From NCBI RefSeq assembly GCF_037975245.1, contig NC_092573.1:14652001-14716000 (forward strand): a DNA stretch of 64,000 bases. Reading direction: 5' to 3'. The DNA is from Apostichopus japonicus. Lineage: Eukaryota; Echinodermata; Holothuroidea; Aspidochirotida; Stichopodidae. Below, one piece after another: positions 19,901 through 62,087 of the stretch (within the stretch, counting starts at the first letter, position 1; each line of letters begins with the position of its first letter). The translations under genes and the position numbers were made by a program. The notes under the pieces are model-generated. The model was not told where the DNA came from. It searched no databases and saw only the letters and a list, made by a program, of their open reading frames with translations.

Positions 19901-22900
19901 GAAATCTGTCCAAATTGGCCTGCCATAGAATGTCCTCATCAATATAATACTGCAAAATAATATGAAAATGAAGATTTCTCAAACGACATAATTTATAAAT
20001 AAATATGGGCCACACAGGCCCAATTGAGAATACTGTCACACTGATCATTTGGATAATGTGGTAATACCACATGTATCCCTGCATTTATGAATCACTCTTT
20101 GAGACTACACATAGGGATACTCATCTGAAACTATGTTTTATAACTTCACTATCAATCTATGAATATGCATTTATTATGTGATCATAAAATTCGTTAAAGA
20201 CGTTTTTTAACTTTAAGAAGAAAAGTATCGACAACTCATAAGTTTGTATTTTCCTTGTATCTCTCTCTACTGTACCTCCGATTCTCCTAGATCGTCTGTC
20301 TTTGCTCTCTTCGATCTACGTCCGGCTTCATCCTCTTTGGGGTCTCTCTTCCGTTTCCCTAGAGGGGTTCCTTCGTAGGATAGAAAATACTTTGGGTTAT
20401 GAATATCATCTTTACTCAAACAGTGCAGGTGAAAGGCCAGTGTTCTGTTATACTCATCTACAATTTTGCTTTGAGCGTTGCACTTTTATCAAGCAGCGTA
20501 TTTGGTCCTTGATTTACCTAAGCAATGATTTTATAGGTCAATAACAAACACTCTTTTATACTTGAGAATATACTGTCATGTAACTAGTGTAGGAGAGGAG
20601 AGTAAAACAAGTAAGTCACAGATGTTCAATTAAGAATATGCTGACTGCAGACGTAGAAGTGAGGAGGGAAGATAAATCATAATTTCCAAGTGATGTGAGA
20701 AATCTTTGTCCCTTTTTGTTATTCTGGTGCACAATTTAATACAAATCATGTTCCCATCCCATTTTCTTAATCCACCATTCTTCCCCCCCCCCACCCCACA
20801 GAAAAGTTATACATGTATCTACAACACTGAAAACATGTCATAAAATGGATGTGATTTGTTTGGCAACTGGTAACATAGTACAAAACATAATTAGAGCAGA
20901 AAGATAATGAAACTATGTTTCTCTATGCTCCTTCACCCCCCACCCCCCCCTTCCCTCACTATGGTTTTGATCCAAACATTTCTGTGGCTGACATCATCAC
21001 CTACTACAGTATATACAGACATAACCAACAGTAAAGTGCCAATCCTAACTACAAGCATCATATTTACCAATGTCATGTACAAAGGAAGGAAGTCTGTAAA
21101 GAGCTGCCTGCTGTCGAGCCACATCAGGGTCAGAAGTTGCTTCTTGGACAGCTTCACTCTCTGGGTTGGGTACTCTCTGAATAAACCTGGTCTCAACCAA
21201 CTTGATGAACTTACCACGGACCATAGACGTCTCAATTTTCTTGCTATCTGTAAACAAAATCAAAGTAATAATACATCTTCATTAGAACTTCCTTCAATAA
21301 CTATTCTCACTCACAGAGTGTCGATCGGACTTTGAATAGTTAAAAAGTTTTTTTTTAAACATATTTCAGGGAATAATTTAATGTTCAAATCTTTTGTGTA
21401 GTAGTTTATGAAGGCTCTGAAGTTTTGTCTCATATGAAATACTATTGTTTCTGTGTCAAAAAGTGCTACACAATCTTTTGGGTTGTATATTTATAGCAAT
21501 CTGACAATTTCTGCATAGCATTTTGAGATACAATACTGGATAAATTATTCCCTTTATTTCATCATTTTGTTTTTATTATGAGGGAACCAGGCAAATCCCC
21601 TCCTCCCCCTTCCCTCCCTGCCCCCAATATTAATACCTCCTACTGCCTTTTATTGTTGTTTTTGTTTTGTCTCTCATGAAATACTATTGTTCCTGTGTCA
21701 AAAAGTGCTACACATCTTTTGGGTTGTGTATTTATAGCAAGCTGACAATTTTCGCATAGCATTTTGTGATGTATCCATACTGGATAAATTATTCCCTTTA
21801 TTTTATCATTTTGTTTTTTATTCTGAGGGACCAGACAACTCCCCTCCTCTCACCCTCCTCCCCCGCCCCCAATATTAATACCTCCTACTGCCTTTTGAAG
21901 CCTCTCTGTGACATTCTGAAGTACCACAGTCATCGTCATCTGACCACCGTGCAGAATCTCCTCAACTATCAATTCTCCAGCATCGTCATACAGCATCTTA
22001 GCACAGTAGATGAATCTTGGGTACCGAGCCAAGAGCAAGCATCGGTTGACACTCACAGAGTATTCCACCAAGTTCTTCTTGTTCGATTCGAATGATGCGA
22101 TCCTGTGATTGATCATAACGCACAGGGCCTTCTTCACCTGTTGAGACAAAAAAAATTTGTTAATTTAGATTAATCAAACTTGATAGTTTCGTTGTAAATT
22201 TTTCGATGGCACATTAATTTTCTATAAGATCTTACTGTATATTATGGTTTACCACTTTACCTCATGTAAAACATCAGATTATCTAAAATGAAACTGACTT
22301 CAACATCATTCATAATTCTATACAGTACCTGCCTGTGGTACATAAGTAAGCAATATTTGTTGTGATCTTGATTTTCAACAGGTAATAACGGTTCCCCTTT
22401 TCCTTAAACTCATCATAGTATCCCTGAATTAAAGTTCACCAATAGGAATCAAAATATAACATAATGTAGGACCCATAGAACCAAATCTTGACCTCCAATA
22501 TGAGGTCAAAATGGTACTGTAGTTTTATCACTGAAAAGGCACATAAACCCAAAGTTAACCATATTATACAAACTTCCCTATCCCCTATTCCACCTAAGTA
22601 CTTATATTTTGGTAAAGTATCTTGACATCACTACCTACCAAATCAGTTGAAATCAGCTTCTTATAAATGTTTTCACAGATTGGCTCTAAATATGTTTAAT
22701 TTTAGGTTACTTATCAGAGCAAGAAAATGATACAACATTGTCCACAAACACCACAGTCAGCCACATGGAGGGCTACATGACAAACCAAAAGGCTCACTAA
22801 ATATGCTATTCTCAAAGATATATCCATGTTTGCAACGATATACAGCCATGTTCTAAAAGGTACAGTACATGAACAATGTAAACTGAAATGGGGTTCATGC

Positions 22901-23931
22901 CAACATTTCTGTTGCTGAACAGCAACATGTATCAGTATGGTGTTCTTTAAAGCTAACAGTTTCCAAATTGAATTAACCGCAGAGTATTGCCATCTATGCT
23001 GTGAGCTTTCTGGTCCATAGTCATACAGAATTTCAAAACCTCATCAAAAATATGATAATATTCTGCAAGATATATATCAATAACCGCAAATTGATACCTG
23101 AAATGTGTTAAATGTCGTTGAGTACATGTCACAGTATATATCATTATGTCAGCTACATATCGGTATTTTTAATACCGATATTTTTAAGCCTATAAGTGTG
23201 ATTATTTTGAAGAGAAACCACTCAAACCTTAGAGATACTGCTTTGGTCTTCATTGCTTGATTTATTTTTTGGTTTTGGCTTCAATACATATCAATGTATT
23301 TTAGAGAAGGCTGACATATCACTATACATGTCACTGTTACAGAATCTTTGTCCGTCAAAACTACTGGCGGCTGTGAATTCTAACCACTCCTTACATACCT
23401 GCCCACCTTTCATCATTGTACAGTACTCATTGCATGATAATCAAACAGGTACATATGTAGAGATGTCAGAGATTCAGTAATGATAGTACTACCAACATAG
23501 CACTACCAACCCAAAACATTGACAAAGAAACAAGTGATTCAACTGTTTTCCAGTTTTTGACAAATATATTGACAAATTATTTGCTTTAAATTTAAATATT
23601 TTGCTTTGCTATTTAAAAATATGGGACAGTTCATGGAAGTCTTCTCATCAGGCAGAGTCATCTATATAATTTTTAGCAGAATTGAAAGATTGTTGGCAAG
23701 AAACACCCACTATAAAGCAATATGCTAATTGAAGTTGGCAGGCTCATATACCTCAGTCCTGGGCACCTTGGTCCTGGTAGCAATTGTTTGCAATGAACTT
23801 GCACCATTCTCTAGAAGAAACCAGCAAACTTTCTCAACAGTTTCACCAAATAGCTCTTCAGTAAGGTGACATGCTAAACGGATTGCCAAAGCAGACATGC
23901 TTGAATGTTGTCAATTCTAAAATGAATGATC
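13814..23931 (-). CDS. POLR3C: DNA-directed RNA polymerase III subunit RPC3 (RPC62), 11 coding exons
   Basis: RPC3 forms the Pol III-specific initiation trimer with RPC6 and RPC7 in the nucleus and helps open promoters of tRNA, 5S and U6 genes. Coding exons in order: 23752-23898, 21882-22137, 21068-21247, 20276-20370, 19845-19949, 19392-19565, 18675-18726, 17115-17242, 16321-16556, 15020-15169, 13814-13934. All junctions are GT-AG and in phase, giving 547 aa, against about 534 in human. Recognisable stretches are VKKALCVMINHRIASFE, YPRFIYCAKMLYDDAGELIV, LWQANLDRFHQYFRDHEIVS, CIESVVQERFGSKSHRIFKL, KAPDHAPSRTYY and EIEEMIT. These correspond to the extended winged-helix domains and the C-terminal coiled-coil. 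A basic patch (GKRKRD...RRSKRAKTDD) at about 197-220 could be a nuclear localisation signal. The ATG is at 23898. An acceptor (cttcgacag) at 23932 shows a non-coding 5' exon further upstream, not located. Confidence 0.95.
15020..15169 (-). CDS. POLR3C: POLR3C coding exon 10
   Basis: Acceptor acatttcag|ACG; encodes RLIDKAQRVEVIAASFKSDG through KTRMAK, including EIEEMIT. Donor GCAAA|GTATGT, phase 2. C-terminal coiled-coil region. Confidence 0.92.
15688..16010. repeat. POLR3C: About 20-bp minisatellite in POLR3C intron 9
   Basis: Some fifteen imperfect tandem copies of a unit like gcagactcacgcaaagcatt, more degenerate at the low-coordinate end. Contiguous units with no unique spacers. Confidence 0.88.
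16321..16556 (-). CDS. POLR3C: POLR3C coding exon 9
   Basis: Acceptor ctcacaag|ATT; encodes IESNVLIPAKEAKELLYQMF through KFERNEN. Donor AATAG|GTGAGA, phase 2. Contains PDHAPSRTYY. Confidence 0.93.
17115..17242 (-). CDS. POLR3C: POLR3C coding exon 8
   Basis: Acceptor ataatatcag|AT; encodes LQKGSLAVTLSCIESVVQER through LEHKQ. Donor CAG|GTTAGG, phase 0. Contains the family hallmark ESVVQERFGS. Confidence 0.93.
17701..18657. repeat. POLR3C: 74-bp minisatellite, about 13 copies, in POLR3C intron 7
   Basis: The unit starts tcatgtgacatctcatctca and repeats every 74 bp (17701, 17775, 17849 and on), with few substitutions and two main variants (gacatctc / gaattctc). It contains tgatgacatcacaaatgatgt, which is partly self-complementary. 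The array stops 17 bp from the exon 7 donor. Confidence 0.95.
18675..18726 (-). CDS. POLR3C: POLR3C coding exon 7 (52-nt microexon-sized)
   Basis: Acceptor gtcacag|ACT; encodes TRIVRKVSEAGGRLYDI. Donor ATTG|GTATCC, phase 1, joining to DLQKGS in exon 8. Its donor lies about 17 bp from the 74-bp minisatellite. Confidence 0.83.
19392..19565 (-). CDS. POLR3C: POLR3C coding exon 6
   Basis: Acceptor catctag|CTG; encodes LASEIVRTMLRISEVTT through FDQYLKILTENQ. Donor CAG|GTAATC, phase 0. Confidence 0.9.
19845..19949 (-). CDS. POLR3C: POLR3C coding exon 5
   Basis: Acceptor attttgcag|TAT; encodes YYIDEDILWQANLDRFHQYF through KSNGS. Donor CTCA|GTGAGT, phase 0. Among the most conserved parts of the protein. 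Confidence 0.93.
20276..20370 (-). CDS. POLR3C: POLR3C coding exon 4
   Basis: Acceptor cctacgaag|GA; encodes the charged linker GTPLGKRKRDPKEDEAGRRS and on to LGESE. Donor GAG|GTACAG, phase 0. The acceptor lacks a strong pyrimidine tract, but the frame and the basic linker match the family. Confidence 0.85.
21068..21247 (-). CDS. POLR3C: POLR3C coding exon 3
   Basis: Acceptor tgtttacag|AT; encodes DSKKIETSMVRGKFIKLVET through LPSFVHDI. Donor ATTG|GTAAAT, phase 1. Confidence 0.92.
21429..21893. repeat. POLR3C: Tandem duplication (about 225-bp units) spanning the POLR3C exon 2 donor
   Basis: The stretch tcatgaaatactattgtt...cctcctactgcctttt occurs at 21674-21893 and again, slightly diverged, at 21429-21650. 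The first copy includes the last roughly 12 coding bases of exon 2 and its GT donor; the second is an intronic duplicate with an intact donor-like sequence at 21637/21636. Confidence 0.85.
21882..22137 (-). CDS. POLR3C: POLR3C coding exon 2
   Basis: Acceptor tctcaacag|GTG; encodes VKKALCVMINHR through TERLQKAVG. Donor GTAGGAG|GTATTA, phase 1. The last bases of this exon and its donor are duplicated about 245 bp downstream in the intron. Confidence 0.93.
23752..23931 (-). CDS. POLR3C: POLR3C exon with start codon
   Basis: Acceptor ttcgacag at 23933-23932, about 33 nt of 5' UTR, ATG at 23898-23896, then MSALAIRLACHLTEELFGET through VPRTE. Donor GAG|GTATAT, phase 0. First winged-helix domain. 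Confidence 0.9.
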
Positions 23932-33228: not shown

Positions 33229-34262
33229 CAGCACCCCTAATATTAATCTATATAAGTAGTACTTAAAGCAATGTATTTTATCATGTATGTGAATGGACTA
33301 CCACATCTTTCATTATTTATTTTCAAGTTAAATGAAAAAGAGTCATAGCCGTATTTTTTCATAATCTAGTTGTGTACGTAATGAAGGACATCTCAGTTAA
33401 AGGGCCAGACTAGTCTTAGACTAGAAAAGCTTACTAGCTTCATCTAGTTCTTTTTTTCATACTTACTTTTATTGTTAATTTTCATTATTATGTATGTATT
33501 GTAATTGAAATAAATATAATCGAAACGAAAACGTTAACTTTTACGTAAGTCTAATGAGATGCCACCAAGGGCGGTTTCGGGTGTGCACCCTACCCCTTCA
33601 ATCCCACAAATGAATATGCATGTGCAGTATCTTTTCAGGTGAATCATGATACTTCATGAACTTGACTAGCTTTCACAGTCACGGAAAGGAAGTGGAGATT
33701 ATATTATTTAGATTAATTTCGCGATGATATAACGTGTTTTTTTTTTCGTGTTCAGAGTCCTGAAGACTTTTCTTAAAATGTTAAGGGAGCCATGAGTCCT
33801 ACAAGTTAAAGTCTCTAAGTCATGGAAGTAGCCTGGATATTGTTTCCATGGCTAACGCCTCAGTCGAGGAGACATATAGAAAAGTTTCCCAACTGCAAAC
33901 ACTTCAAAAACAGAACAAAAGTAACACTTGAAAAGGTGTATTGAAGCTTCCTTAGGGTTTCCGTAGCCTCAAGTAACTCGCTATAAGCTCTGCGTGGGTT
34001 AATTACGTAAATAGTTGCTGACATGTGAACTCTATACCATGTCACTACTTGTGCTTGTATACACAAGTTACATCGATTAAGTTAGTACTGGTGTGTATTT
34101 ACACCTGTTCAGACGGCCGTACCCATCAGAAGAAGTGTGACATTTGTGCCTTCGAATGGTCCAGAATGCCTACCTAGATCAACGTTTGGACGAAATCAAC
34201 CACCAGGTAACTTCGTATCCAAATGTATCGCAGGAAAAGACTAAGAAGGAGAACTTGTCATA
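33229..34262. other. Upstream flank of the CHSY1-like gene
   Basis: No gene seen. It should contain the promoter and 5' UTR of the chondroitin synthase gene; no TATA box or initiator could be assigned. A poly-T run lies at about 33739-33747. Confidence 0.45.
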
Positions 34263-35036
34263 ATGTTTCTGCGACGGTCATCCGTTCCTGGATTCCGCTA
34301 TGTGGCAGTTTTGTTCACAGGGATAGTGTTAGGCTTCACTCTAGCAACATGGATACTACAGCACTTAGGTCACGGAGGGGTCATATTCAGTGGGCAAAAA
34401 TGCTCTCGGATGGACTTTCAGGCCGATGGTGCCACTACAAGTACAGTAGATTCAGTACCATCCAAAAACCTGATATTTGTGGGGGTTATGACTGCAGCAA
34501 AGTATCTTCCCACACGTGCTGTTGCAGTCAATCGGACGTGGGCACAAACTATTCCTGGCCAAGTAGCATTTTTCTCCAGCAGTTCGTCCGAGGTACCAGC
34601 AGAGTGGAACCTACCAGTAGTAAGTTTACACGGGGTAGATGATTCCTACCCACCACAAAAGAAGTCATTTATGATGCTGAAATACATGCATGATAACTTT
34701 ATTGACAAGTATGAATGGTTTATGAGGGCAGATGATGATGTTTACATTAAAGGTTACAAATTAGAACCATTCCTACGATCCCTTAATGGGACTAAGCGCC
34801 TCTACGTGGGCCAAGCAGGACTGGGAAAAACAGAAGAGAAAGGTCTTCTGCATTTACAACATGGAGAGAACTTTTGCATGGGTGGACCTGGAATGATTTT
34901 TAGTAGGGAAACCTTAAAAAGTATTGCACCCCACATTAGTTACTGTCTGCAGAACCTTTGGAGTGTACACGAAGATGTAGAAGTTGGAAGATGTGTCCGA
35001 AAGTTTGCAGAAGTGGATTGCACGTGGTCCTATGAG
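34263..35036 (+). CDS. CHSY1: Chondroitin sulfate synthase 1-like, first coding exon (partial gene)
   Basis: CHSY enzymes are Golgi type II membrane proteins that polymerise chondroitin from UDP-GlcUA and UDP-GalNAc. This exon encodes 258 residues. These are a short cytosolic tail, a signal-anchor at about 10-32 (YVAVLFTGIVLGFTLATWIL), a stem, and the start of the GT31 domain. The GT31 part has GVMTAAKYLPTRAVAVNRTW, GVDDSYPPQKKSFMMLKYMH, a DDD metal-binding motif at 157-159 (ADDDVYIKG), FCMGGPGMIF and HEDVEVGRCVRKF. It ends WSYE|GTACGT, a consensus phase-0 donor, just where the family continues with a Tyr/Glu-rich segment. The rest of the GT31 region and the C-terminal GalNAc-transferase half were not found up to 64,000. 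CHSY3 is a close alternative. Confidence 0.92.
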
Positions 35037-37259
35037 GTACGTGTACAATGGCAAAATAATGATTCTTTGTAATATTAAACAGATGCAGCATTGATACTGC
35101 AAATCATCCAGGGTATATGTTGGTTCAGTTGCTCTATGGTTGGATGTAGTCCATGCCTCGAGAGCAACACAAAGGGCACAATTGAAGTATGTAGGCAATA
35201 TACTCACTAAACTAGATTGATAAACCTGCCAGGCAAGTTCATAAGTGAAAGTAATCCAGTTTGGAGTTTTGACTTGTGAAAAAGATTGTGGGGTAAATGG
35301 ATAATACACAAACCTTGCACAGTATTCTTACAGTCAGTGTGGGAAACACACAGAGGCTACGGGCGACTCACCCTCATGAGCGCCAAAAAGCCCTCAAAAG
35401 CACAATTGCGACGGTGATTTTTTTTTTAAATATAAGGAAAATTGCCCCGGTTATATCAAAGGGGTTGGTGTATAATTACTTTTTGACATATGTTCTTCAC
35501 TTGTTAACTTATTTACCTTTATTTTAAATATATACAATATAAATTATTTTTTTTGTCGCCAGTTTTCCTTCTTATGGCAAGTTTGTCCAGTTCTGCGAAT
35601 TCCAAATTCATTGTTTACAGATGCCATAGACCTAGGCTGGGTCATAGTGTAGCCCAATGATATATATATGTATAGTACTGAATGTGCTCGATACAAGACC
35701 TACACGTTACAGCTTCAGACCGTGTGTACTGTGAAGCCGAAATTGGGGAAGCCATGACACTGAAATATTGCAAAGAAATATTCCAGGAAACAGCGTACAT
35801 TCCACCTCCCGCATACACACTACTGTATATACCGCCTCGAAGTTGTAAACTGATTTTTGTCATGACCAATCTCATGTGTGTAAAATGGTTCTCATGTGTA
35901 GAGGTTGTTCACAATCTTAGTGTCCAGCATTTACAAACGTACAGCCATTGAAACATTTAAATTCTAACAACTTATTACAGGGAACGGTTTGAGCTTACAA
36001 AGTATGTATTTGTGTTTTGAAGGCATTCATCAATATGTTGTGTTCATATTACAGGTAACCAATTAAAAAAGTTAAGTAAACATTGATATCATGATGGCTT
36101 GGGTGTGCACAGGCAACCCCTACACAGAGAGTATATAGAACTAGTGGCCGAGGTAGACTACTAACAATAAACTATGCGGATATCCCCATCTGGTTTTAAA
36201 TTATAAGAGCATTAAAATAGCTGCAATAAACAAAACTTTAACAAGTTGTAACCACTTTATTTCTAGTTCCACCATACTAAAATTCATAAGTAAATGACAC
36301 ACAAGTTGATATGCAGAAAATCAAATCAACAGTTCATGGTTATCTGTCACTGTCATGGAACCAGTTGCCAAGTTGGTTAAGCGGAGTAATTTGTTAACTA
36401 TATTAAGTTCGTGAACACAAAAATGTGAAGAAACAAACGTTTCATGTTGGAATTGATGCACTTAAGGTGGCCAAACATCTCCTAAATTACATTTCTTGAG
36501 GCATATATTCTACATGCCGTCGGTCATTATTCAAAAAATTTACAACAATTTAAGGAGTTTTGAGACAAGGTTGCTGTTATCCCTACCATGGTTTGTTGCA
36601 AACAGTTTTCAGATTTCCACTCAACACTGGTTGCGAGTGGAAGATAGATGCTTTGTCAACCTTAGATGTTGATCAATTGGGTTTTAATTGTGTTCTTTTA
36701 GAAGTGAATATTTTGTGAATGCAGTCTTCAGGTACAGTACAGTAGTAACAATGTACTTAATATATTAATATAAAATCACCCTTGCAAACCAAAAATAGCT
36801 CTTGCACAGGCATTTGCACAGGATCATTTTTAGTCACAAATAGCCCCCCTTAATAACCTTTTACAGTAGTTCTGACCCCTGCTTACACAGTACTTATGAA
36901 TTTTTAGACCAAGAAGAGCACATACTTGCTACAGTATATATGTATGCAAGAAACGAATCTTCCAAGATACACTCAAGTTTTGACTATGGATGATTTGCGC
37001 ATACATGTGCAATTGAAGCTCCGAAGTTCGAACAGGCCTATGTACATGCAGTAATGAACTGCGTGGAATTTAGCGAGATATATATCTACGTACAGTACAC
37101 ACTATAGGTACGGGTAGTTTTGAAGAATCAGTTGTTGGAATCGCTTGAAGGTCAAAGCATGGAGCAACTACACAGTAAAAATGATTGAAAGTTTTCATAT
37201 TAATCATGATGGACATTCTGACTCTCCAAACAAGTTTCCAACAAGGAGGAATGTCTTAG
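35037..37259. other. Presumed CHSY1 intron, first part
   Basis: Begins with the donor GTACGTGT. No continuation exon seen. Open frames here, such as 35682-35951, match nothing I recognise. Confidence 0.5.
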
Positions 37260-37263
37260 TTAA

Positions 37264-38753
37264 AGAGGTTATGAAATAAAAAATTTTCATGTCTTGGAAT
37301 GGTTTATCTACATTACTACAACACCACCCATGCACAACATTCAGTAAATACGGCTTCAAATGCCAGAAATTCGCTGTCAAAGTATTCCCTAGAGACCTCT
37401 CAAGCTATACTCGTAAAAAAAAGCAATGCTGCCCACCGCAGTTCATCTGACGTCATCAAAGGAACCATTTCAGCCAAAGCCGACTCCCCGCTGTTTACCG
37501 ATACGGTGTTACACAGTTTACTACATGTAACCACAACACTCTTCTCATCAATTGAAAATGTCTTCTCCTGAATCTAGGACTTAACCTCTCAGGACATTTG
37601 TAAGCTTTGAGAAAAATTATTTTCTTGAGGAAGAAGAGGAGGAAATAGTTTTCGAGGGTGATGAAGATAATATCGGTGTTTTTCCCTATCAATTGAGCCC
37701 TTTGCAGAAGAATTGTAAAACGATCCTGATGGCCGAGACGCGTCGCTGCCGATCAAAGTCCCCGAGCAGAACGGTTGGACGACCCTGAACCGAAACTGGT
37801 CGGTTGAGCATAAACAAAACCACCATTATTAAGACCATCATATGATTTAAATTATCTCGAATGTTGATGATCCTGCTACTGAACTTCGTAGCGAAGCTTC
37901 TAGAATTTTGTGTCTTACAGTGCAAGGAAAATGTGACATTCTGTACAGTGCAACCCTATAGTACTATAGAGTAGTGGTAACATGGGGTCTAGACCTACAG
38001 TAACTAATAGACGTTGTATAACAGGGTAGCCTGTGTAATTGTATCATCCAACTGTTACGTAAAATCACAACACAACGCCAGTTTTACCACAAAAGAAAAC
38101 TTGCAGATCTAGTATTGATTGTTCTAAACCAACTGGCTTTAAGTTTTGTGCAAAATATTAGGTAACCAAAAAAAAAATCGTCATTTGCAGTACTCAAGGA
38201 GGCCTAGGCTATGGTCATAACAAGTACTTTGGCAACAGTATAGGCAGGGAGTTGTTATGGAACAACTCCCTGGTATAGGCCTACAGGCACTCGTAACGTT
38301 GTGTATGTGTAGTGTTTTGAGCGAGTCGTGTTCAAATTCTTCAATTTCTGTCATCTATTGGAAAAGATTGCAGTAGAAATCTGTCTTTACTTGTGGTGGA
38401 GCAACCTGATATCGGCTCGCCATATTTAACAGTTACGAGATAAATTTACGTAAAAACAACTCCAAACTCCAAATATCAGTACTACGGAGCACTGCAACAG
38501 TGTAATGTTGTGTGTTCTCAGACGTTTAAGAAAGTAAACATAGCGTCTCGGGAGTGAGCTGAGTTTCTCGACTGACGTCACGCCGCATTACCGTAAAATC
38601 AACAATTTTTAGAAAGTTTTTATTACCCTCGAATTTTTGATCGTTTATTCCTCGAGGATGCAAGCTTCGTTTGACACAAATTGGGTATCATTGGAAAGCT
38701 ACGAGTGTACAGAATACGATGATAAAGAAAAAAATTTCCATTTCATAACCTCT
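37264..38753. mobile_element. TTAA-flanked TIR element (piggyBac-like target)
   Basis: Ends agaggttatgaaat (left) and atttcataacctct (right) are perfect inverted repeats of 14 bp. Both are flanked directly by TTAA (37260-37263 and 38754-38757). The 1,490-bp interior has no recognisable transposase. An unfilled copy of the target lies at 38805-38857. The TTAA target is that of piggyBac-like transposons, although the tip lacks the usual CCC. Confidence 0.82.
38249..38274. repeat. Short palindrome also seen near 10848
   Basis: gggagttgtt-atgg-aacaactccc forms a perfect 10-bp stem. A partial copy (gggagttgttatggaactcc) lies beside the foldback element at 10848. Confidence 0.6.
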
Positions 38754-38860
38754 TTAACATAATTTGTAAAATTAGTAAATTATGGAAATTATTTGATGGT
38801 GGCAAGGAGGAATGTTTTAGTTAACATAATTTGTAAAATTAGTAAATTATGGAAATGAAT
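38754..38860. repeat. Direct duplication of about 67 bp carrying the TTAA target
   Basis: ttaacataatttgtaaaatt and the bases after it occur at 38754-38789 and again at 38821-38856, separated by a ggaggaatgttttag segment. That segment also occurs to the left of the element at 37245-37259. Confidence 0.88.
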
Positions 38861-40280
38861 TGATAGTGGAAGGAAAGTGCCTGTTTTAAGTTTGAACAAG
38901 AGTGAAAATAGTTGAAGTTTTCTTAGAAGCAACACAGCTGACCTTTAAACACGTGTAGCCTGCATGTAACTGTCGTACTGTATATGTACTTATGGTCAGC
39001 ACTTGTATTTCACAACCTTGGGTGTTTCTTGACCTCTCTATCAAAAGTTGAGCCTAGTCTTTCATAAATTGCATTTTGTTCAATTCAGCAAAAAAAGTTG
39101 AAACTTGTTGATCATTTACAAATCCCATGTAGCATTTTGCCTAGCCATACTAATTCAATATATGTATGTACAGTGAAGAGCACATTGCACAGGAGCACAG
39201 TATGGTACTTGAAAAATTACCCTAGATGTGAGCCATCCTATAAGGAATTTGGACCAAGATCTTACAAAGACAACACAGACAAGTTAAAATTTACTTTTAA
39301 GTGCACTCCGTACTGTATGTCTCTCTCAACCACACTTAAGTCATAATTAGTTGTTCAACCCAAAAGGTGCAAAACTCGAAACTCAAAAATACATAGAATC
39401 CTTGGCTTTGTCAATTTGTGTCTTACAGTACAGCATTAAATAACTTCAAGTCTGTCTTCATTGAAGAGATCTTGCCAATATTTGTTTACATAGTGTACTG
39501 AGCAGTAATTTGCAACCATTATAGGACCTTTCATGTTCAGCAAATTTCCCTTAAAATGCTAAATAATACAGAACAATAAGTAAATCGTTCTAATCATCAA
39601 TTTACAAAGTTGCACAGATCATGAACTTGCTTGTGCACCCATAACATACTGTATATTGTACTTCCAATACATGGTATTTGAAACTTTATTCAACTTTTAT
39701 ATCTTGTCGGATTGCTATCCAGTCCCACAGTGTAGTACTTACATATATATATATACTGTATACTGTACTGAATTGATCTGATATTGTCATGATACTATAT
39801 GTATATTTTCAGGCTACAGGTTCAGTATGATCAATGCTTTATTACAGTATGTAAATAAATACATGTAGGTAAAGTTATGGAAGGGCCAACCATACTGTGA
39901 TGAAGGACTGAACTTTATATTTATTTCCACAGGATAGCTTTAACCCCAGTCTGCTTTGTGACCTTTGATCCCTAAAGTTCCCTAAGGACTGATTCTGAAC
40001 ACCATGAGCAAAAGTTTAAAGTTTGAGCTTTGACATTTCCAAATTGTTACCAGACATAAATGGTCATTTGTTTAAGAATTTGGACTTATTTATGGTCATT
40101 GCAGACCACAATTTGTGCTTGATTTAATAATATATGGGAAGTACATGGTTTATGATGCGATGTAGTAAATCCTTGAACATCAGTAGTCTAGATTCAGTAC
40201 AAATTTATCTAGATATTACAGACCCTGCATTGAATTGCAAATTTAAGGCTTTATACATTACCGGATGGGAGGTTATTGGA
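38861..40280. other. No gene seen
   Basis: AT-rich sequence with many short tacagta-type words; no exon or element end supported. Confidence 0.5.
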
Positions 40281-40284
40281 ATAC

Positions 40285-40965
40285 TGCCCAGTGATGGAAA
40301 GTCTTTGGCTCAGATGCTTGGGCTTTGGACATGGTTTCCGAAGGGTACCAATTATAGTTCACCTCTATGCCTCCAGAGGAAGGAGAACCACACCACAACA
40401 CTCAAGAATCTGGACCAACAGCATGCCTGGAGAGGGAAATCCAGGCATTGTTAGACAAAAGGCGCGGAAGGGAGGGACCCTCATCCGTTCATCATTCTTC
40501 CTCACTCCCCAATAAGACAAGTCCTGGAGGCCAATTTTGAACTTCAGGTCACTAAACAGAGCGTTTGTCAAAGTAAAATGCTTTTCAGGGTGGAGATGCT
40601 CTCTGTCCATCCCTCAAGAGGGGCATGTGGGCATTGATGGTGGATCTGCAGGATGCCTACCTTCATGTGCCAACCCACCAAGCATATCAATGTTTCCTCG
40701 CGTTCAACTACAAGGGACAGACTTCATGTTCATGGCCCTTCCGTTCAGCCTTGCCACTGACCAGACCTAGATAGGACTCTCGAGGCCGGCCCACCAGGCC
40801 TGACTTGGAACCAGTCCCTAGAGGTGCCCTACCACGGAACTCCCGATGATAGGGGGAAGACCAAACAAGTTCAAACATATTCAAGTTCCTACCACAGTAA
40901 CAGTGCCACTCTGCAGTGCATATAGGTTAAGGAGACAGGTAGGTGAGGAGTGAAGTAAATCCAAT
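40285..40965 (+). pseudogene. Internally deleted DIRS retrotransposon relic
   Basis: Plus-strand fragments read TLIRSSFFLTPQ, SLNRAFVKVKCF, MWALMVDLQDAYLHVPTHQA and QCFLAFNYKGQ. They are interrupted by frameshifts and correspond to the RT of the full copy (RSSFFLTKK, MWAATVDLRDAYLHILVHKD). The sequence then jumps to cagtgccactctgcagtgca and ggagacaggtaggtgaggag, equivalent to the recombinase end and internal complementary region of the full copy. So most of the RT, the RNase H and the recombinase are deleted. Confidence 0.8.
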
Positions 40966-41600: not shown

Positions 41601-42482
41601 GTACAGGTAGATAACTAATAGCATGAGTTTGCAGTTAGATAAGCTAATAGCATGAGTGTACAGGTAGATAAACTGATATCATGAGTGTACAGGTAGATAA
41701 ACTGATATCATTAGTGTACAGGTAGATGAACTAATAGCATGAGTTTACAGGTAGATAAACTAATATCATGAGTGTACCGGTAGATAAACTAATGTCATGA
41801 GTGTACAGGTAGATAAACTAATTATCATTAGTGTACAGGTAGATAACTAATAGCATGAGTTTGCAGTTAGATAAGCTAATAGCATGAGTGTACAGGTAGA
41901 TAAACTGATATCATGAGTGTACAGGTAGATAAACTGGTATCATTAGTGTACAGGTAGATGAACTAATAGCATGAGTTTACAGGTAGATAAACTAATATCA
42001 TGAGTGTACCGGTAGATAAACTAATGTCATGAGTGTACAGGTAGATAAACTAATTATCATTAGTGTACAGGTAGATGAACTAATAGCATGAGTTTACAGT
42101 TAGATAAGCTTATAGCATGAGTGTACAGGTAGATAAACTGATATCATGAGTGTACAGGTAGATAAACTGATATCATTAGCGTACAGGTAGATGAACTAAT
42201 ATCATGAGTGTACAGGTAGATCAACTAATATCATGAGTGTACAGGTACAGTAGATCAACTAATAGGCCTATCATGAGTGTACAGGTAGATAAACTGATAT
42301 CATTAGTGTACAGGTACAGTAGATCAACTAATAGCATGAGTTTACAGGTAGATAAACTAATATCATGAGTGTACCGTTAGATAAACTAATTGATGTCATG
42401 AGTGTACAGGTAGATAAACTAATATCATGAGTGTACAGGTAGATAAACTAATATCATGAGTGTACAGGTAGATAAACTAATA
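41601..42482. repeat. 29-bp satellite with 232-bp (8-mer) higher-order repeat
   Basis: About thirty copies of a unit like gtgtacaggtagataaactg plus atatcatga. Diagnostic variants (agataactaatagcatgagt, ttgcagttagataagct) recur at 41609, 41841 and 42073, exactly 232 bp or eight monomers apart. Later monomers are more homogeneous or carry small insertions. Confidence 0.93.
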
Positions 42483-44466
42483 TAACAGGATGTTGTAGAT
42501 CTTGCAGTTGATAAATTTTCATTGCCATCCAGGATATATGTGAAACTTTGTCAATAACAAATGGCTTCACTTTTGACAACAAGCAGTGAACCGTTTCCTA
42601 GAAAGTCTCTATCTGCATGCCAACTGTTTGTTAATTGCACTCATACCAGCTTTACAGTGTATACTACGTACACTCCGGAACTATTGATTTTCGTCGGTCT
42701 CTGACAGTTAAAAAAAATTATTCTGTGGAAAGAAATATTTAATTATATGTTTCTGTCATAGTTTCAGGTATTATATATCAGTCTCTTCACATGATGAATG
42801 GAATAGCCATCTAAGTATTAGTTCACTTTGTCAAAGATCTATGGATGCTTCCAGTTGTAAACGCTGTCAATAAATTCAATATTTCGCATTTCTAGTAACC
42901 CTGACACAGATTGGGATATGGCTTGGCAGTCTGTCAGATGATAATATAGAAAGTGTTGTTTATGGTGGTACACTGGGAATCTGAAAATCGTTGCTCAAAA
43001 AATTATTGGGGGAAGAGGGTGTGGGTGGGGGGGCGGGGTGTTGCATATGGTGCTGATTATAGGTAAGTGTTTATTTTTTTTTTCTCTTCAATTTTAAGAT
43101 GGCACAGACTTTAATTTTGAACAGCAAACTTTAAATGTAGGATAAGAGGAACATCTTGTACATTTGCAATTGTGTGGTTAAATTTAATACGACATAACAA
43201 TTGTCTAATCAATATAAATAACCATACATCCATCAAAACATAAAAAGCTATTGTTGTAAAAATGCATTGACATAAATGATCAATGTGAAATATGATTCAA
43301 AGCTACTGTACGGCCATTCCACAGACTTAGCAGAGCTGTATGCAAGAGCCAAGACCTGTACTGAACTGTATTACTATGTACAGTAGGTACACAGTGACTG
43401 TATGCTGATATTACAATGCACACTCTACAATGTGCTATCTTTAATATTACCATGGAGAAGATGCAGGTAATTAGTGATAATACACAGTTTGGAATGCCGT
43501 CTCCTTGTCTATTTGCACTTTTTACAGCGGCTCAAATGCAGGCTTTTAGTGTTTGTTTGAATTTGCGCGGTATGTACTTCTTTTGTAAAGGTTCCTCCCA
43601 TAATGTCAAATGTTTATTCAACAGAGCTGTACAATATATATCATTCTTGATATGTTTGCGCTAACGATTCGACCAGTGGCTCCAACAGACACTCATCGTG
43701 GTTAGAAGTGTCTAGCCTCTTTAACTAACTACAGGATGGGAGCTCTTGAGTCGGCTTCCTAGCAACTGTTTCTAAGGGATTCGTGGAGATTGCAATTTGC
43801 ATTGTGCACTTCTGTGCCAGGGTAGATTAGAATGGCTTGTATTGCAGTATGCGTACAATGAAGCAAGATCTGTGCATATAAATGAAAAGAAATATCACCA
43901 AAAAAAAAACAGAAGATTTTTTGAGCATAGGTCTGTCAAATTACTGTAGTGATTAGCATCGCTACAAAACTGGCACTCTGATCTGATATAATTAAATGCA
44001 TACATGTATGTTTTGGTTCTGGGTTGTATGAATTTAATGCTGTACATAATTTTCTGTATGTATGTACTCAAGTTCATTCATTTAAATGTGAGTATATACA
44101 GCACACCACAGTTTCACAGTATGTGTTGGAGTCACGCTCTAGATTTCAAACTTTTGGACTAACTTTGCCCCGGTCGATGTGTTTCCATGCAATTATCCAT
44201 ATATATTGCACTTTTCCATCTACTCCTCATCCTATAAAGTTGGCAATCTATCTTCGAAAACCCTCTCTCCTCTCCTCCCCCCTTCTTCAAGCTATCTATA
44301 CTGTATCTGCCTTAATTGTCACTGTAAATGCACAAATCCAGTATGTACGGTATTGTATCATGGCATGATATTTGAGCGTGTAAATCTCAAACTAAGTACT
44401 GTAAAGTTCTGGAATTTGCAAGTTAGTAGTAACTTAAACCAAAACATTTGCATTGGAAGAACCCAG
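42483..44466. other. No gene seen
   Basis: Presumed intron or flank with a G-rich run at about 43010-43040. Nothing else supported. Confidence 0.5.
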
Positions 44467-44600
44467 ATTTACTTCGCTCCTCGCTTACCTGTCTCCTCAC
44501 AACCTTAGCACTTCATTCTACTGTGCCTATAAAGTCTTGGTAAAATAATAACACTGTGCGCCCTCTATGACCGGGCCCCCCCCCGTCACTCCTCCTTTTT
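44467..44600 (+). repeat. Left inverted terminal repeat of DIRS copy 1
   Basis: Starts atttacttcgctcctcgctt and continues through cttagcacttcattctactg to the C-run at about 44577. It is the inverse of the right end except for the outer roughly 20-40 bp. Confidence 0.9.
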
Positions 44601-45188
44601 CATTCTACCATTAAAGTGTCTACACGCAAAAATTCTTGTGGAAGTTTCCCTTGAATTTTGTCTTGGATTTCTTTATACGATCGTTGGAATTTCCTTTCAT
44701 TCGGATTCTGTGGAGTTTTGCAGTCTTTTCCAGACCGATAAGTATCCTTTTTGTTGAAAGGGAGGGTTTTGGGGACTGTTTTCTCAGTGCGTTTCCGCCT
44801 TCGGGCGTTTTTTGTGCGGGGGTAGCAGTTCCGCGAACTGCTTAGGTTCCCGCCATTTTCCTCCCCCACGCTATAGGCGTGTTGTTTTCATGTTTTCCAT
44901 GTTCGTAGCATGTTGTTTTTCGTGTATTTTCATGTTCATAGCATGTTTACTCGTTATTATTTTCCTCTTCTATATATATTGCTCTCTCACGTTCTTTTCA
45001 GCTTGTATTGATTGTTGTTAGGCCACTTTGTAGCGTTTGTATTTACCGTTGCTAGGTTACGCTACGTTCCACCTATTCTCTGTTAGCATGTTCCTCCCCC
45101 AGATTATCTCCCGTTCTCTTGTTAGCTTCATTGGCTTTCATTTTTAAGCTCTAAGAATTATACCTCCTTGACTCGAGAGTTTACAAGC
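44601..45188 (+). other. Leader of DIRS copy 1
   Basis: Non-coding leader between ITR and gag-like start, conserved in copy 2 (59330-59929), for example ttttggggactgttttc and accgttgctaggttacgcta. Possible promoter/leader; no element was identified. Confidence 0.6.
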
Positions 45189-47345
45189 ATGTCTCGTAAC
45201 CAGCTGAAGTGTGTCAGCTGCTCGATGTTTCGGCCAGGCAGAGCCTGGGACGAGCACGACCTATGCCCCAAGTGCAGATCCTGCACCAGACGGGACCCCT
45301 GCCTGGTCTGTATAAAATTCTCGCCGACCCAGTGGCAGGAGATTGATCAGTGGCTCAAGAGTCTGCGAACCAAGCTGCAGGGCAAGCTAGACTTGATCCC
45401 GAACGACATCGGGGCAGAGGATATAGGAGGGACGGGAGAGAGAGAGGAAGAGGGTGAGGTAGAGAGAGAGGTGGAGGAGAGTGGCCAGGAGAGGGCCGAA
45501 GGAGAGAGAGAGGAGAGAGAGAAAGAGAAAGAGAAAGAGAAAGAGAGAGTACCCCTAACGGTCCCGGCGACGTCCGGCGTAGTTACGACCAAAGGGAAGG
45601 GCAGGAGCAAAGGGAAGGCTCCTGCCAAGAAAAGACCTCTCAAGAAGAGGCACTGCTCGGCCGGGCTAGAGGTTACGCCTCAGTGTGGACCGCAGCAAGA
45701 TAGACCCATGGAGCGCGGGCCGCCGGCCACAGAGAGCTCGGGTCCGAAAGAGAGTGCGATCGAAGGGTCAGTGAGACGGAGCCGGTCCCATAGCAGGGAG
45801 CCGAAGAGGGAGCCGGAAAGACGGGTCCCTACTGAGACCCCGACCCGGGAAAGCAGGGGGAGAGAGACCTCCCGCAGACCTAGAAGAGATAGATCCGGAA
45901 CGCACTCAAGATCCCCGAGACGGAAGGAGAGGAGAAGACACTCCCCGACCTCCGACGAGTCTTCAGAGTCGTCTGACGACGGCTACAGGAGAGCGAAGAG
46001 GAGGCGCCGGTCCCCGAGACGGCGACAGGAGGAGGAGCCAGCATGGCTGGCTCAACTTACCGGCCTACTACGCCCCCTGATAGAGCAGAGAGTAACCACG
46101 GTGACCGACAAGGCACCAGGCTCCACAGGCTCCGGCCCTACTACGGCCCCACATCCGGTCTCGGATCCAGACGCCCTGGACTGCAGAGCGTCGGTAAATC
46201 TATCCGGCTTGGAGGACGAGGGGGATCTTATGGATCCCACAGAACCCCTCGACTACGATCCTATGGAAGATAGCTTTAGTCGAAGCTACGAACCAGAGGA
46301 GGCTCCCATAACAGGAGGAGCGCTCCCCCAAGAGTTAATGGCACGGGCGGCCGACATCTTCAGACGGCACCTGGGGTTCGAGGAACCTGAGACCCAGCCA
46401 CAGAAGGCAGGCCGGGTGTCCAAACTCACGGCAACCGGCGAGATGTCATCGAAGCCAAAGACCACCATGCCCGTTGACGCAACATGTTATGATAGATTCG
46501 AGGCCATAGCCGATAAGAACAGGTGGACTGCCTTCCCAGCCAGGGCAGACAGGGCAGTCAGGGTACCAGACGAGGCCTGGAGGGCGCTATTCAAATGCCC
46601 AACCATCCCCCAGGAGGCCAAAGAAAGGCTGAAGGCCGAACATGGGGCCTCATCTTCCCAAACCTTTAAGACTCCTGACCAGAGAAAGCTGGAAGAACTT
46701 CTAGTTGAGGTGGACACAGCGGCCCGCTCAGGCATGAAGTTCGCCTCAGTCCTAATGCTGTCGGCCGAGGTCCTTATGCGGCACCACCAGCAACTCCCTG
46801 AGGACGACAGCCAGGTGTCCAGGGATGAAGCGGGCCAGCTCCTCCTACTGCTAGGACCCCTCGTAAGGCTCGCATACGACCAGTTTGCAAGAGTCGCTAC
46901 ACGTTCCGTAAAAGCCCGCAGGGAGAACGTCGTCTCCGCCATCCGCTGGCCATCAACCGAGGCAAGGAACAGAATGCTAGCTCTGCCAGTGCTCGGTGAG
47001 GACCTCTTCGGAGGCAACTTCCAGAAAAAACTACAGGAAGAGGTGGCCCGGAGAGAGACCCTGGCTAAATCGGAGTTTAGACCCTCGGCTACACAAAGAC
47101 CGAGACCCTTCCGACCGAGGGAGAACAAGCCAACCAGGGGAGCGAGAGCAGCACCCGCCAGACCACTGAGCAGAGGAGCTCTCAGAGGAAGAAGCAGGGG
47201 AACGGCATACCGCCCGACCCGCTCCTGGACACCGAGAGGAGGCAGAGGCACAGCGCCTCCCAGACGGGACTCGACCGTCGTTCGCCTCCCAGCCCTAGGG
47301 GTGCCCACCTCACCGCGGCCATTCCGCAGGTGGGGGGGAGACTGA
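45189..47345 (+). CDS. DIRS copy 1 gag-like protein (ORF1)
   Basis: A structural protein presumed to package the element RNA. Start chosen at ATG 45189 (MSRNQLKCVSC), the position conserved in copy 2; the frame is open further upstream without ATG. The product is 718 aa. Residues 8-41 hold a seven-cysteine cluster, C8-x2-C11, C26-x2-C29-x2-C32, C38-x2-C41, suggesting zinc binding. An acidic and E/R-rich stretch follows at about 90-125. Then comes an Arg/Ser-rich region (RRSRSHSREP, SPRRKERRRHSPTS, RRRRSPRRRQEEEP). A conserved C-terminal half contains DATCYDRFEAIADKNRWTAF and FARVATRSVKARR. A basic tail ends the protein, with the stop in the overlap with ORF2. Confidence 0.88.
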   Translation: MSRNQLKCVSCSMFRPGRAWDEHDLCPKCRSCTRRDPCLVCIKFSPTQWQEIDQWLKSLRTKLQGKLDLIPNDIGAEDIGGTGEREEEGEVEREVEESGQERAEGEREEREKEKEKEKERVPLTVPATSGVVTTKGKGRSKGKAPAKKRPLKKRHCSAGLEVTPQCGPQQDRPMERGPPATESSGPKESAIEGSVRRSRSHSREPKREPERRVPTETPTRESRGRETSRRPRRDRSGTHSRSPRRKERRRHSPTSDESSESSDDGYRRAKRRRRSPRRRQEEEPAWLAQLTGLLRPLIEQRVTTVTDKAPGSTGSGPTTAPHPVSDPDALDCRASVNLSGLEDEGDLMDPTEPLDYDPMEDSFSRSYEPEEAPITGGALPQELMARAADIFRRHLGFEEPETQPQKAGRVSKLTATGEMSSKPKTTMPVDATCYDRFEAIADKNRWTAFPARADRAVRVPDEAWRALFKCPTIPQEAKERLKAEHGASSSQTFKTPDQRKLEELLVEVDTAARSGMKFASVLMLSAEVLMRHHQQLPEDDSQVSRDEAGQLLLLLGPLVRLAYDQFARVATRSVKARRENVVSAIRWPSTEARNRMLALPVLGEDLFGGNFQKKLQEEVARRETLAKSEFRPSATQRPRPFRPRENKPTRGARAAPARPLSRGALRGRSRGTAYRPTRSWTPRGGRGTAPPRRDSTVVRLPALGVPTSPRPFRRWGGD

Positions 47346-49361
47346 CAAACTTTACCCAGCAATGGGAATTCATTGGCGGGGACAAGTGGGTGTTGGACAC
47401 AGTCGAACACGGATATCGAATAGAATTCTCCTCCAGCCCACCCTTCGGGGGCGGAGGAAGACAGACACCCACACCCACAGACCCCGTCAAACGCCTAATT
47501 CTAGAAGGGGAAATTCTGGCCCTGCTGGCCAAGCAGGCAATTGTGGAGGTACCGGGAGGGACAGGACCACTCTTCCGGTCCTCTTTCTTTCTGACCAAAA
47601 AACGGGACGACACCTGGCGTCCCATCTTAAATCTAAAACCCCTCAACACAAAATTTATCAGGCCAAAACACTTCCGTATGGAAACCCTAAATATAATATT
47701 ACCCCTACTCAGAAAGGGCATGTGGGCGGCGACCGTAGACTTACGGGACGCTTACCTACACATCCTAGTGCACAAGGATCACCGACGGTTTCTAACGTTC
47801 CGGTATGCAGAACAGGATTACCAGTTCAGGGCGCTCCCGTTCGGCCTGTCCACGGCCCCCAGAGTCTTCACGAGAATAGCGGGAGCGGTAGTCTCCTACC
47901 TCAGAAGGAGAGGGGTCACCCTGTACGTGTACCTCGACGACTGGTTGGTGGTAGGGAGCTCTCAGTCAGAGGCCGCCGACAACGTACACAAAACGCTCCA
48001 TACCCTCCGAGAGCTGGGCTGGATCGTGAACGAGAAGAAGTCTCGACTATCTCCAACTCAGACGACCCAGTTCCTTGGAGCGATACTAGACTTCTCCGCC
48101 GGGGTAGCCCGACCCTCGGAAGAAAGGATCACTGCGGTCAGGACGACCACGCAACAGATCTTGTCACACCAAGAGTCACCCAAAATGATGTGGCTCCGAG
48201 CCCTGGGACTCATGGCCAGTCTGGTCGATGTAGTCCGACTGTGCAGGTTACACATGCGACCCCTACAGCTTCACCTCCTGAAGTCCGCAGACCCCACAGA
48301 TCCGGACATGACAACACCAATCCACAGGTCGGAGGAAACCACTCAACACCTCCGATGGTGGCTCGACCCAGACAATTGGAGTCAAGGGGTACCTTTCACA
48401 ATAGAGCTACCAATGACATCTGTAACGACAGACGCTTCACTCACCGGATGGGGGGGCTCATTGGAGCAACCGCACAGCCTGGGGAACGTGGTCCCCAACA
48501 GAAAGATCATTCCACATCAATATCCTGGAGATGATCGCAGTCAAGAGAGCTCTGGAAACCTTCAACGAGCACATACAGGGTACAATAACCACGGTCTTCA
48601 CGGACAACACCACAGTGGTGGCTTACATCAACCGGCAGGGGGGCACCCACTCAGAGAAGCTCTGCCGGCTAGCATGGGAGGTGATAACAGCAGCCGAGGA
48701 TTCGGGCACGATCCTACGAGCTTCCCACATTGCGGGCAAGCTCAACGTGATGGCAGACGCCTTGTCCAGGGGGCATTTAGACCCCAACGAATGGACGCTG
48801 GAACAAGAAACTTGCAACAGAACCTTCGCGATCTTCGGAAAGCCGATGATAGACCTGTTCGCAACATACACAAACAGCAAGCTGCAGACCTTTTGTTCCA
48901 GACGGTTCCACCCCCAGGCCTACCACACGGATGCGATGTCCCTCCCATGGGACCACTTAGAGGCCTACGTCTTCCCACCGCTTTGCATGGTCGGGCAGGT
49001 TCTCAGAAAGATCCGGAACTCCAAGGGCAGGTTTATTCTAATAGCCCCGTTCTGGCCTCGCAGACCCTGGTTCGCAGAGATTCCCCAACTCCTCATGGAC
49101 GTCCCAGCGAGCCTACCAGACAAGCCCCACCTACTGTCCCAGAGACAGGGAACACTCTCCCACCCGGACATCAAGGGGTTGCAGTTAGTTGCCTGGAAAC
49201 TGTCCGGTCTTCCCTACGACAGAGAGGTTTTTCAGAGGCAGCTGCCGCGATGGCAGCCGACGCTAGAAGGGGAACGACCGCAAAGACTTACGATTCCCGC
49301 CTGCGGAAGTTCGAACAGTGGTGCCGGCCTAGACAGATACTGCTTACTAAGATCTCTATAG
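47330..49361 (+). pseudogene. DIRS copy 1 reverse transcriptase-RNase H-MT frame, broken by one G
   Basis: The RT part (about 47560-48180) contains RSSFFLTKKRDDTWRPILNL, TVDLRDAYLHI, FRALPFGLSTAPRVFTR and the catalytic YLDDWL at 47930-47941. The RNase H part starts TTDASLTGWG and continues, after the break, in another frame with FTDNTTVVAYINRQGG, AEDSGTILRASHIAG and NVMADALSRGH. A C-terminal region MIDLFATYTNS...DAMSLPWDH...APFWPRRPW fits the putative methylase-like (MT) domain of DIRS elements. At 48450-48456 a run of seven G replaces the six-base ggggag of copy 2, shifting frame by one. The true start is unclear: the frame is open at least 170 nt upstream of the GTG at 47330, overlapping ORF1, which suggests frameshifting or re-initiation. 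Confidence 0.85.
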
Positions 49362-50263
49362 CACAGACTGCCGAGTTCCTACTCTCACTCTTCAGAGAAG
49401 GCAAACAAGTCTCTACAATCAAAAATTACAGGTCGGCCATCGCTGCCATCCACCAGGGTTTTCCAGACGGCTCCACTCTGGGCAATAACCTAGACATTGC
49501 CCAGCTCATCAAAGGCATGGCTAATCGCCGTCCACGAGTCAGACGGTTAGCCCCCTCCTGGGGGCTCTCAGCAGTACTGCATGCCCTGGCAGGGCCTCCA
49601 TACGAGCCAATGGCAAACGCTTCCCTAGCTGCCCTCACAAAGAAGACACTCTTTCTTATTGCGGTAGCGTCAGCAAGAAGGAGGAGCTGCCTACATGCCC
49701 TAACGACCAAACCGAACCACATCAGATTCGAGGGCCATGGGGTGAGGATGGTTCCAGACCCGGCCTTCATTGCCAAGAACCAGGCCCTGACCTTCTTGCC
49801 GGGAGACATCTTCATCCCGGAGATTAAAACCCTGTCATCAGTGGCCGAGGACAAACGATGGTGCCCAGTCAGGGCTTTGAAGTGGTATTTAAGCAGGACA
49901 GAGAAGTTAAGACAAACAACTTCCCTCTTTATCCTGCCACGACCACCCTACACATCGGCCTCCAAGGATACCCTGTCCAGATGGCTAGTGGAGACAATAC
50001 GCCCGTTCACAACGGGGGCTGCCCGGCCAAGAGCCCACGACATCAGAGGGATCTCAGCCTCCACAGCCCTCTTTGCCGGTATCCCGATAGAGGACATCCT
50101 CAAGGCGGCAGCGTGGAAAACACCAACTACGTTCGTCGCCTGCTATCTAACTGACACACTACACGCCGAGGCGGCATTTGGTAGCGCGGTGATGCGAGGT
50201 CCGGCGGGTAATAGGTCCCACCCCTCGGGCCTCCCACCATCGGGCAGTGCCACTCGGTGCTAA
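49250..50263 (+). CDS. DIRS copy 1 tyrosine recombinase
   Basis: Would integrate the circular DNA intermediate. ATG 49250 (MAADARRGTTAKTYDSRLRK) to TAA 50263, 337 aa, overlapping the end of the MT frame by about 110 nt. N-terminal SAM-like core-binding part: FLLSLFREGKQVSTIKNYRS. Catalytic part: Arg within ASARRRSCLHAL, HDIR box (AHDIRGISAS, His codon at 50036), and a C-terminal AAWKTPTTFVACYL with the likely Tyr nucleophile. Because of the G insertion upstream, this frame is fused in silico with the RT frame; the natural unit is the recombinase alone. Confidence 0.87.
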   Translation: MAADARRGTTAKTYDSRLRKFEQWCRPRQILLTKISIAQTAEFLLSLFREGKQVSTIKNYRSAIAAIHQGFPDGSTLGNNLDIAQLIKGMANRRPRVRRLAPSWGLSAVLHALAGPPYEPMANASLAALTKKTLFLIAVASARRRSCLHALTTKPNHIRFEGHGVRMVPDPAFIAKNQALTFLPGDIFIPEIKTLSSVAEDKRWCPVRALKWYLSRTEKLRQTTSLFILPRPPYTSASKDTLSRWLVETIRPFTTGAARPRAHDIRGISASTALFAGIPIEDILKAAAWKTPTTFVACYLTDTLHAEAAFGSAVMRGPAGNRSHPSGLPPSGSATRC

Positions 50264-50354
50264 GGTTGTGAGGAGACAGGTAAGCGAGGAGCGAAGTAAA
50301 TATTCCAAAACTTACTGGTTTGGATATTTACGAGTGACGAGCTTACCTGTCTCC
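50262..50354 (+). repeat. Internal complementary region (ICR) of DIRS copy 1
   Basis: taaggttgtgaggagacagg...gcgaagtaaat is the reverse complement of the left terminus. It is joined at 50301/50302 to attccaaaacttactggttt...cttacctgtctcc, the reverse complement of the right terminus. This template is thought to allow circularisation of the replication product. The recombinase stop codon lies at its left edge. Confidence 0.93.
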
Positions 50355-53966: not shown

Positions 53967-55337
53967 TGTATCTGGACTCGCTAAAATTCATCAAGAAATA
54001 CATGTGTACTGTCATCCAATAAATTTTCAAAAATGCTGATCACAGACATCAAGAAGGTTCACATCAATGTACAGTAGAATTGCTTTGGACGATGAGAAAA
54101 AACGTTGTGGAAAGTAGTGGTAACTAAGTGCTACAAAATCTGATCACAACTGTAAGTTCTAGGTCTGTCTTACTAAAATACTGTCAGATTTATCACTTGA
54201 AAATTTTCCACAGGGTATAACTAGCTGTCTCTTTGAATGGGACATGTGGTCTCTCTGATTTGTTGCAGACTACAATACTGAGCAAAAGATGGCACTTCTC
54301 TTATGAGGTTCACAATATCTTCCCTTTGGCTTATACACATGTGGTTTCAATGGTAAAGATGGTTTTACGTCCTTTTGTGAGGCTAGAAACTGTTCATGTC
54401 TGAAGCTACTGCCCACAAATGTGCCTTGCTGTTTCTTAACATAAGTGGTTTTGAAATTAATCCTCAATCCATTTTTCTCTGGTGTGCCACATAGGATTTA
54501 TGTTTTGACTTTAATGTCTTTCTATTAAGAGGTCATCAACATCCCCTGTAATTTGAACCAGCAACGTGTTCAGTTAATGTAACAAAAAAGACTAGTCTTT
54601 TGAACGTTGTGAACTTCTACGAAGTGATCTAATTTACAAATCATGATGGGTGTATTGTTATGGTTGGAAACCCGGTTTGGATTATCTTGTTACCTCGTTT
54701 TCACAGAGCTCTAGAACAATTGCAACAGGACGGAGCTCTTTATAATTACTGTAAGATGTTTTGAGTACATACTGTAGGTTAATGTTTCCTGTACTGTAGT
54801 TGGCATGACTGGCTATCACATAAAGTACTTTCTATCTTAAATGTCCTCACATTGAATACTGGTTTTACATTTCCAAGATACTGTGTGTAATATATACTGT
54901 GTATATAGTTCATCCATGTAATGTCATAAATATGTCCTGACAAAGTTGACAGCCAGATCAAGCTTTGAAATAATTACATAAGTACAGTAAGTTGCTGTCG
55001 TCGAGCACCAGGAGGATCAAGATGGGCAGAAGGTAGATATTAATTCATATCTTAAGTCACAATTGTGTAACATATACAGCACAGTATGCTTATATTATTA
55101 GTACAGTTATATACTGTATAGTGACCACCATCATGTTAAAGTGACAATTGATCATCAATTTTTGACAATTTTATCACAAACATTCCCAACCAGTATACAG
55201 TATTATATACTCAAAATAAAAGCAAAATTGATCAAAACTTCTAATGCATATATACTAAGTGCTATACAGTATAATACAGCAAGAATGAAATAACATGCTT
55301 GCAAGTACTATAATTGAATGTTCAGTTAAATAGTTTT
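53967..55337. other. No gene seen
   Basis: AT-rich DNA without a supported feature. Confidence 0.5.
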
Positions 55338-59197: not shown

Positions 59198-59320
59198 ATT
59201 TACTTCGCTCCTCGCTTACCTGTCTCCTCACAACCTTAGCACCTCATTCTACCGTGCCTATAAAGTCCTGGTAAATAAATAACACTGTGCGCCCTCTATG
59301 ACCGGACCCCCCTTCCGGTC
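59198..59320 (+). repeat. Left inverted terminal repeat of DIRS copy 2
   Basis: Same sequence as the left end of copy 1 with a few changes (cttagcacctcattctaccg; aaatagtaa-type differences), ending near the accggacccccc run. Confidence 0.88.
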
Positions 59321-62056: not shown

Positions 62057-62087
62057 GGGTGCCCACCTCACCGCGGCCATTCCGCCG

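Follow-up and report, generated by a model that had tools for sequence, protein, structure and literature searches.

A probable Kolobok-like TTAA insertion beside an uninterrupted tandem copy of its target in Apostichopus japonicus

An unfilled duplicate of a transposon target shows the site as it stood before insertion, and such paralogous empty sites are already in use in transposon studies. Elements of several kinds are associated with TTAA targets; among them, Sola3 is a TTAA-specific superfamily defined by TTAA duplication together with a Sola transposase. Kolobok elements also duplicate TTAA, and PMC9587614 gives their termini as 5′-RR and YY-3′, unlike those of piggyBac. T2-MITEs target TTAA and carry a terminal AGGRR motif, and among ten full-length frog (Xenopus) Kolobok elements all 20 ends start with AG and 19 of 20 are flanked by TTAA (PMC6004289, Table 5). 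Kolobok MITEs of insects are short, with a mean length of about 386 bp (PMC5199201). For piggyBac, the terminal motifs given by one animal survey are CACTA, CCCTC, CCCTT and CCCAT at the 5′ end, many of the surveyed elements starting with CCC (PMC10813416). In disagreement with the Kolobok papers, PMC7351741 states that no eukaryotic DNA transposon other than piggyBac is known for TTAA-specific integration.

We analyzed a stretch of 64,000 nucleotides of the A. japonicus genome, hereafter the window, in which a sequence-only reading had proposed an insertion flanked by TTAA with an uninterrupted copy of its target nearby. Reading the junctions and aligning the two copies confirmed this arrangement. 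The left junction consists of GGAATGTCTTAG (37248-37259) followed by TTAA (37260-37263), the right junction of TTAA (38754-38757) followed by CATAATTTG, and the uninterrupted copy of GGAATGTTTTAG, TTAA (38821-38824) and CATAATTTG. The proposed local duplication was likewise borne out, the common stretch being longer than had been stated and forming a 67-bp tandem unit. The spacing of 64 bp given for it was incorrect, as the right and intact TTAA lie 67 bp apart from start to start, with 63 bases between them. The features of the locus, in order of position, are the following.

37242..37263, plus strand: left part of copy 1, the host target, reading CAAGGAGGAATGTCTTAG-TTAA and ending in the left TTAA (37260-37263); 21 of 22 positions identical to 38803-38824
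37264..38753, no strand assigned: inserted element, 1490 bp, 39.7% G+C, AGAGG...CCTCT, delimited by its ends, its flanks and the copy alignment
37264..37287, plus strand: left terminal inverted repeat, beginning AGAGGTTATGAAAT, matching the other end exactly over its first 14 nt
38245..38272, no strand assigned: internal perfect 12-bp hairpin with a 4-nt loop, from the inverted-repeat search and folding
38730..38753, minus strand: right terminal inverted repeat, forming an inverted pair with the left end
38754..38757, plus strand: right TTAA, the putative target site duplication, from the junction sequence
38758..38802, plus strand: right part of copy 1, from the copy alignment
38803..38869, plus strand: copy 2, the uninterrupted target, with TTAA at 38821-38824

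Joining 37242-37263 to 38758-38802 restores a copy 1 that matches copy 2 (38803-38869) in 63 of its 67 bases, without any insertion or deletion between them; under the simplest history, the four differences would have arisen since the duplication. With 3 mismatches allowed, a 22-nt left probe and a 36-nt right probe each had two matches in the window, and neither matched in 10 first-order Markov sequences (plus strand) or in 50 more (both strands); the tandem match of these probes is not due to chance. In comparison with paralogous empty sites as generally used, the empty paralogue here is a tandem neighbor, 67 bp away.

Because the neighboring tandem copy is uninterrupted, the ends of the insert can be read directly. 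Its inverted arms (37259-37287 and 38730-38758) span 29 nt with 90% complementarity, a length that takes in the TTAA and one matching base beyond it. Among the 400 TTAA sites of the window, only the insert formed a pair at a spacing of 50-8000 bp whose 16-nt ends were inverted with no more than 3 mismatches; its own 16-nt ends differ by 2, while among 20 Markov control sequences two contained a single such pair, each time with 3 mismatches. A candidate symmetry reaching past the termini was rejected, since 181 of 300 shuffles scored at least as high as the alignment of bases 31-380 from each end, and the repeat search found no long direct repeat inside the insert. The internal hairpin at 38245-38272 folded with a z score of −5.24, and none of 200 shuffles folded as well. 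The 17-nt start of this hairpin, GGGAGTTGTTATGGAAC, has exactly two occurrences, at 10847-10863 and 38247-38263 (with 3 mismatches allowed, two matches arose in 1 of 100 shuffles); the hairpin copy at 10847 is shortened and that at 38245-38272 is perfect, and the sequence is possibly a small dispersed hairpin repeat.

We then asked what the insert encodes. Neither a six-frame read-through of the insert nor seven of its peptide strings gave a Pfam match at E values up to 10, and no remnant of a Kolobok, piggyBac, mariner or Sola transposase was found in the six frames. No Kolobok transposase, which would combine a DDE domain with THAP and H2CH domains, was found in these frames, as expected of a non-autonomous copy. 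A 64-aa acidic frame had a single PDB match (E = 0.33), which we took as chance. Since the insert holds no recognized coding sequence, we take it for a non-autonomous DNA transposon of the cut-and-paste type.

The locus probably arose in two steps. A 67-bp host stretch would have been duplicated in tandem, after which a non-autonomous, TTAA-targeting, Kolobok-like transposon would have entered copy 1 at its TTAA and duplicated this site, leaving copy 2 empty. Such an element would have been mobilized in trans by a transposase encoded elsewhere.

Both the order of these events and the length of the target duplication have competitors. The intact copy had been taken as the unfilled target, and while it is consistent with a site that was never filled, precise excision from a duplicated filled site would look identical. 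In such a history, insertion came before the tandem duplication of the filled site, and one copy was later excised precisely, restoring the empty site; seamless excision is described for piggyBac (PMC7351741). Speaking against it are the additional step, the need to duplicate about 1.56 kb instead of 67 bp, and the lack of any indel in copy 2, whereas excisions inferred for one KolobokP family could take 1-5 bases of the flanks with them (PMC9587614). With fewer steps to explain and a copy 2 free of a footprint, we prefer duplication before insertion and consider excision quite unlikely. The duplicated target had also been called direct proof of the boundaries and of a TTAA duplication; it does fix the boundaries, but a TA duplication fits the same bases. 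TTAA occurs on both sides of the insert and once in the empty copy, and in this single copy a 2-bp TA fits equally. Because TTAA is palindromic, a mariner-like element that starts with AAGAGG, duplicates TA and happened to land in a TTAA would have ends (AAGAGG...CCTCTT) that are equally symmetrical. That reading requires the T and A around the TA to be present by chance or as a preference, and no mariner transposase remnant appears in the six frames of the insert; we regard it as improbable. The flanks share exactly four bases beside the insert, a 5-bp fit fails, and the element's first base is A where the right flank's is C, so that TTAA is the longest target duplication that fits, and we infer a duplication of 4 bp.

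If the duplication is indeed TTAA, the next question is which superfamily the element resembles. The sequence-only reading had suggested a piggyBac type, which the termini do not favor: the ends start with AGAGG rather than with CACTA, CCCTC, CCCTT or CCCAT (the motifs of the survey, PMC10813416), and the AG...CT termini agree with the Kolobok 5′-RR...YY-3′ pattern, a rule that is weak alone, since, by a simple calculation, roughly a quarter of arbitrary inverted-repeat ends would satisfy it. An element of piggyBac type making the same insertion would share the TTAA target and its duplication, would belong to a superfamily present in many animals (PMC10813416), and would suit the treatment of TTAA-specific integration as a piggyBac property in PMC7351741. 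Its CCC-type or CACTA ends differ from those of the insert, the six frames hold no piggyBac transposase remnant, and we think this assignment unlikely; piggyBac is the weaker fit, and on the fit of the AGAGG ends we read the insert as Kolobok-like rather than piggyBac-like. A Sola3 element, or a member of another TTAA-targeting superfamily, would account for the TTAA by its specificity, yet no Sola transposase remnant is present in the six frames, and we give this very little weight. A further variant within Kolobok concerns the 64-aa frame, which, given a change of reading frame, may through one motif resemble the beginning of KolX or of P2X7-ballast-like proteins. A literature search on this motif gave papers with unrelated titles, and the cysteine motif PxWCxCx2C published in PMC7016195 was not seen by eye in the insert translations. 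It is doubtful that the insert stands for a family derived from Kolobok and not yet described, with a degraded beginning of KolX, the second Kolobok gene, retained in its interior; were it so, the insert would have arisen by deletion from a Kol0-type element and would not be a plain MITE.

Returning to the preferred Kolobok-like reading, we compared the insert with its closest described relatives. Like Kolobok elements and the Xenopus T2-MITEs, as portrayed in PMC9587614 and PMC6004289, it has a TTAA target with a putative TTAA duplication, 5′-AG ends and a non-autonomous form lacking its own transposase; unlike them, it ends in AGAGG rather than the T2 motif AGGRR, and it is a single copy in which no transposase remnant links it to Kolobok. 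At 1490 bp, it is long beside the insect Kolobok MITEs. With KolobokP it shares the Kolobok-type terminal two bases and short inverted repeats, whereas KolobokP is defined by long terminal direct repeats, which the insert lacks and which measure about 450 or 660 bp (PMC9587614), compared with the 1490 bp of the insert. Since neither a transposase within the insert nor a second copy in the window was found, the insert is best called Kolobok-like and not a proven member of the superfamily.

The search for further copies covered the window and a set of viral contigs. No second copy of the insert was found in the window by blastn (E up to 0.01), which returned only the insert itself and its own hairpin. 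A search of both window strands for TTAA followed by the 14-nt end, with 4 substitutions tolerated, recovered the two insert ends and three other places, one at 3 substitutions and two at 4; 50 Markov sequences gave a mean of 1.38 matches and 10 of them had at least 3, and we rejected the three outside matches as chance-like. An uncontrolled search allowing gaps at up to 4 edits gave further places, some of them starting with TTAA (such as 1197, 54525, and 43707 on the minus strand). When 2 mismatches were allowed, the 14-nt end alone matched four times in the window, exceeding all 100 shuffles (largest count 3). The matches outside the insert, at 23030-23043 and 54444-54457, have no adjoining TTAA and are therefore not counted as copies; they may be diverged solo ends. 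Among the viral contigs, the 18-mer of TTAA plus end matched at four loci. With 3 mismatches allowed, none of these had an inverted partner, and one (L003) had a second match on the same strand, at 3 mismatches; in this uncontrolled comparison the four loci were taken as chance. Neither of two 24-mers drawn from the insert had any match among the viral contigs.

For one transposon, this locus supplies both exact ends and the pre-insertion target, which is useful for annotation, and it illustrates that TTAA flanks alone are insufficient ground for filing an element as piggyBac. No new mechanism is implied; the insertion is a well-preserved example of an ordinary event, and the principle of the paralogous empty site is not new.

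The window holds other repeats and several likely pieces of host genes. Two retroelements, at 44467-50301 and 59198-64000, the second running to the window end, are 81% identical over 4.8 kb (blastn). The first contains a reverse transcriptase (PF00078, E = 1.1 × 10−19), RNase H and phage-integrase-like matches below curated cut-offs, and an exact 45-bp inverted repeat (44467-44511 and 50257-50301), a domain set from which we label both DIRS-like. A short frame at 40516-40767 resembles by eye the reverse transcriptase at 47081-50260 and has no Pfam match. Likely host gene pieces comprise a Fringe-like glycosyltransferase (34245-35069), a methyltransferase (3528-4106) and an RNA polymerase III RPC82-like exon (19740-20084). 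One minisatellite (17694-18655) has 13 copies of a 74-bp unit with 94% matches, and in another (41601-42483) a 29-bp unit recurs about 30 times, with scores at periods of 58 and 87 bp as well. Base composition predicts 1.23 occurrences of GTACAGTA and 0.87 of TAGGCCTA on the plus strand of the whole window, where 21 and 10, respectively, were counted.
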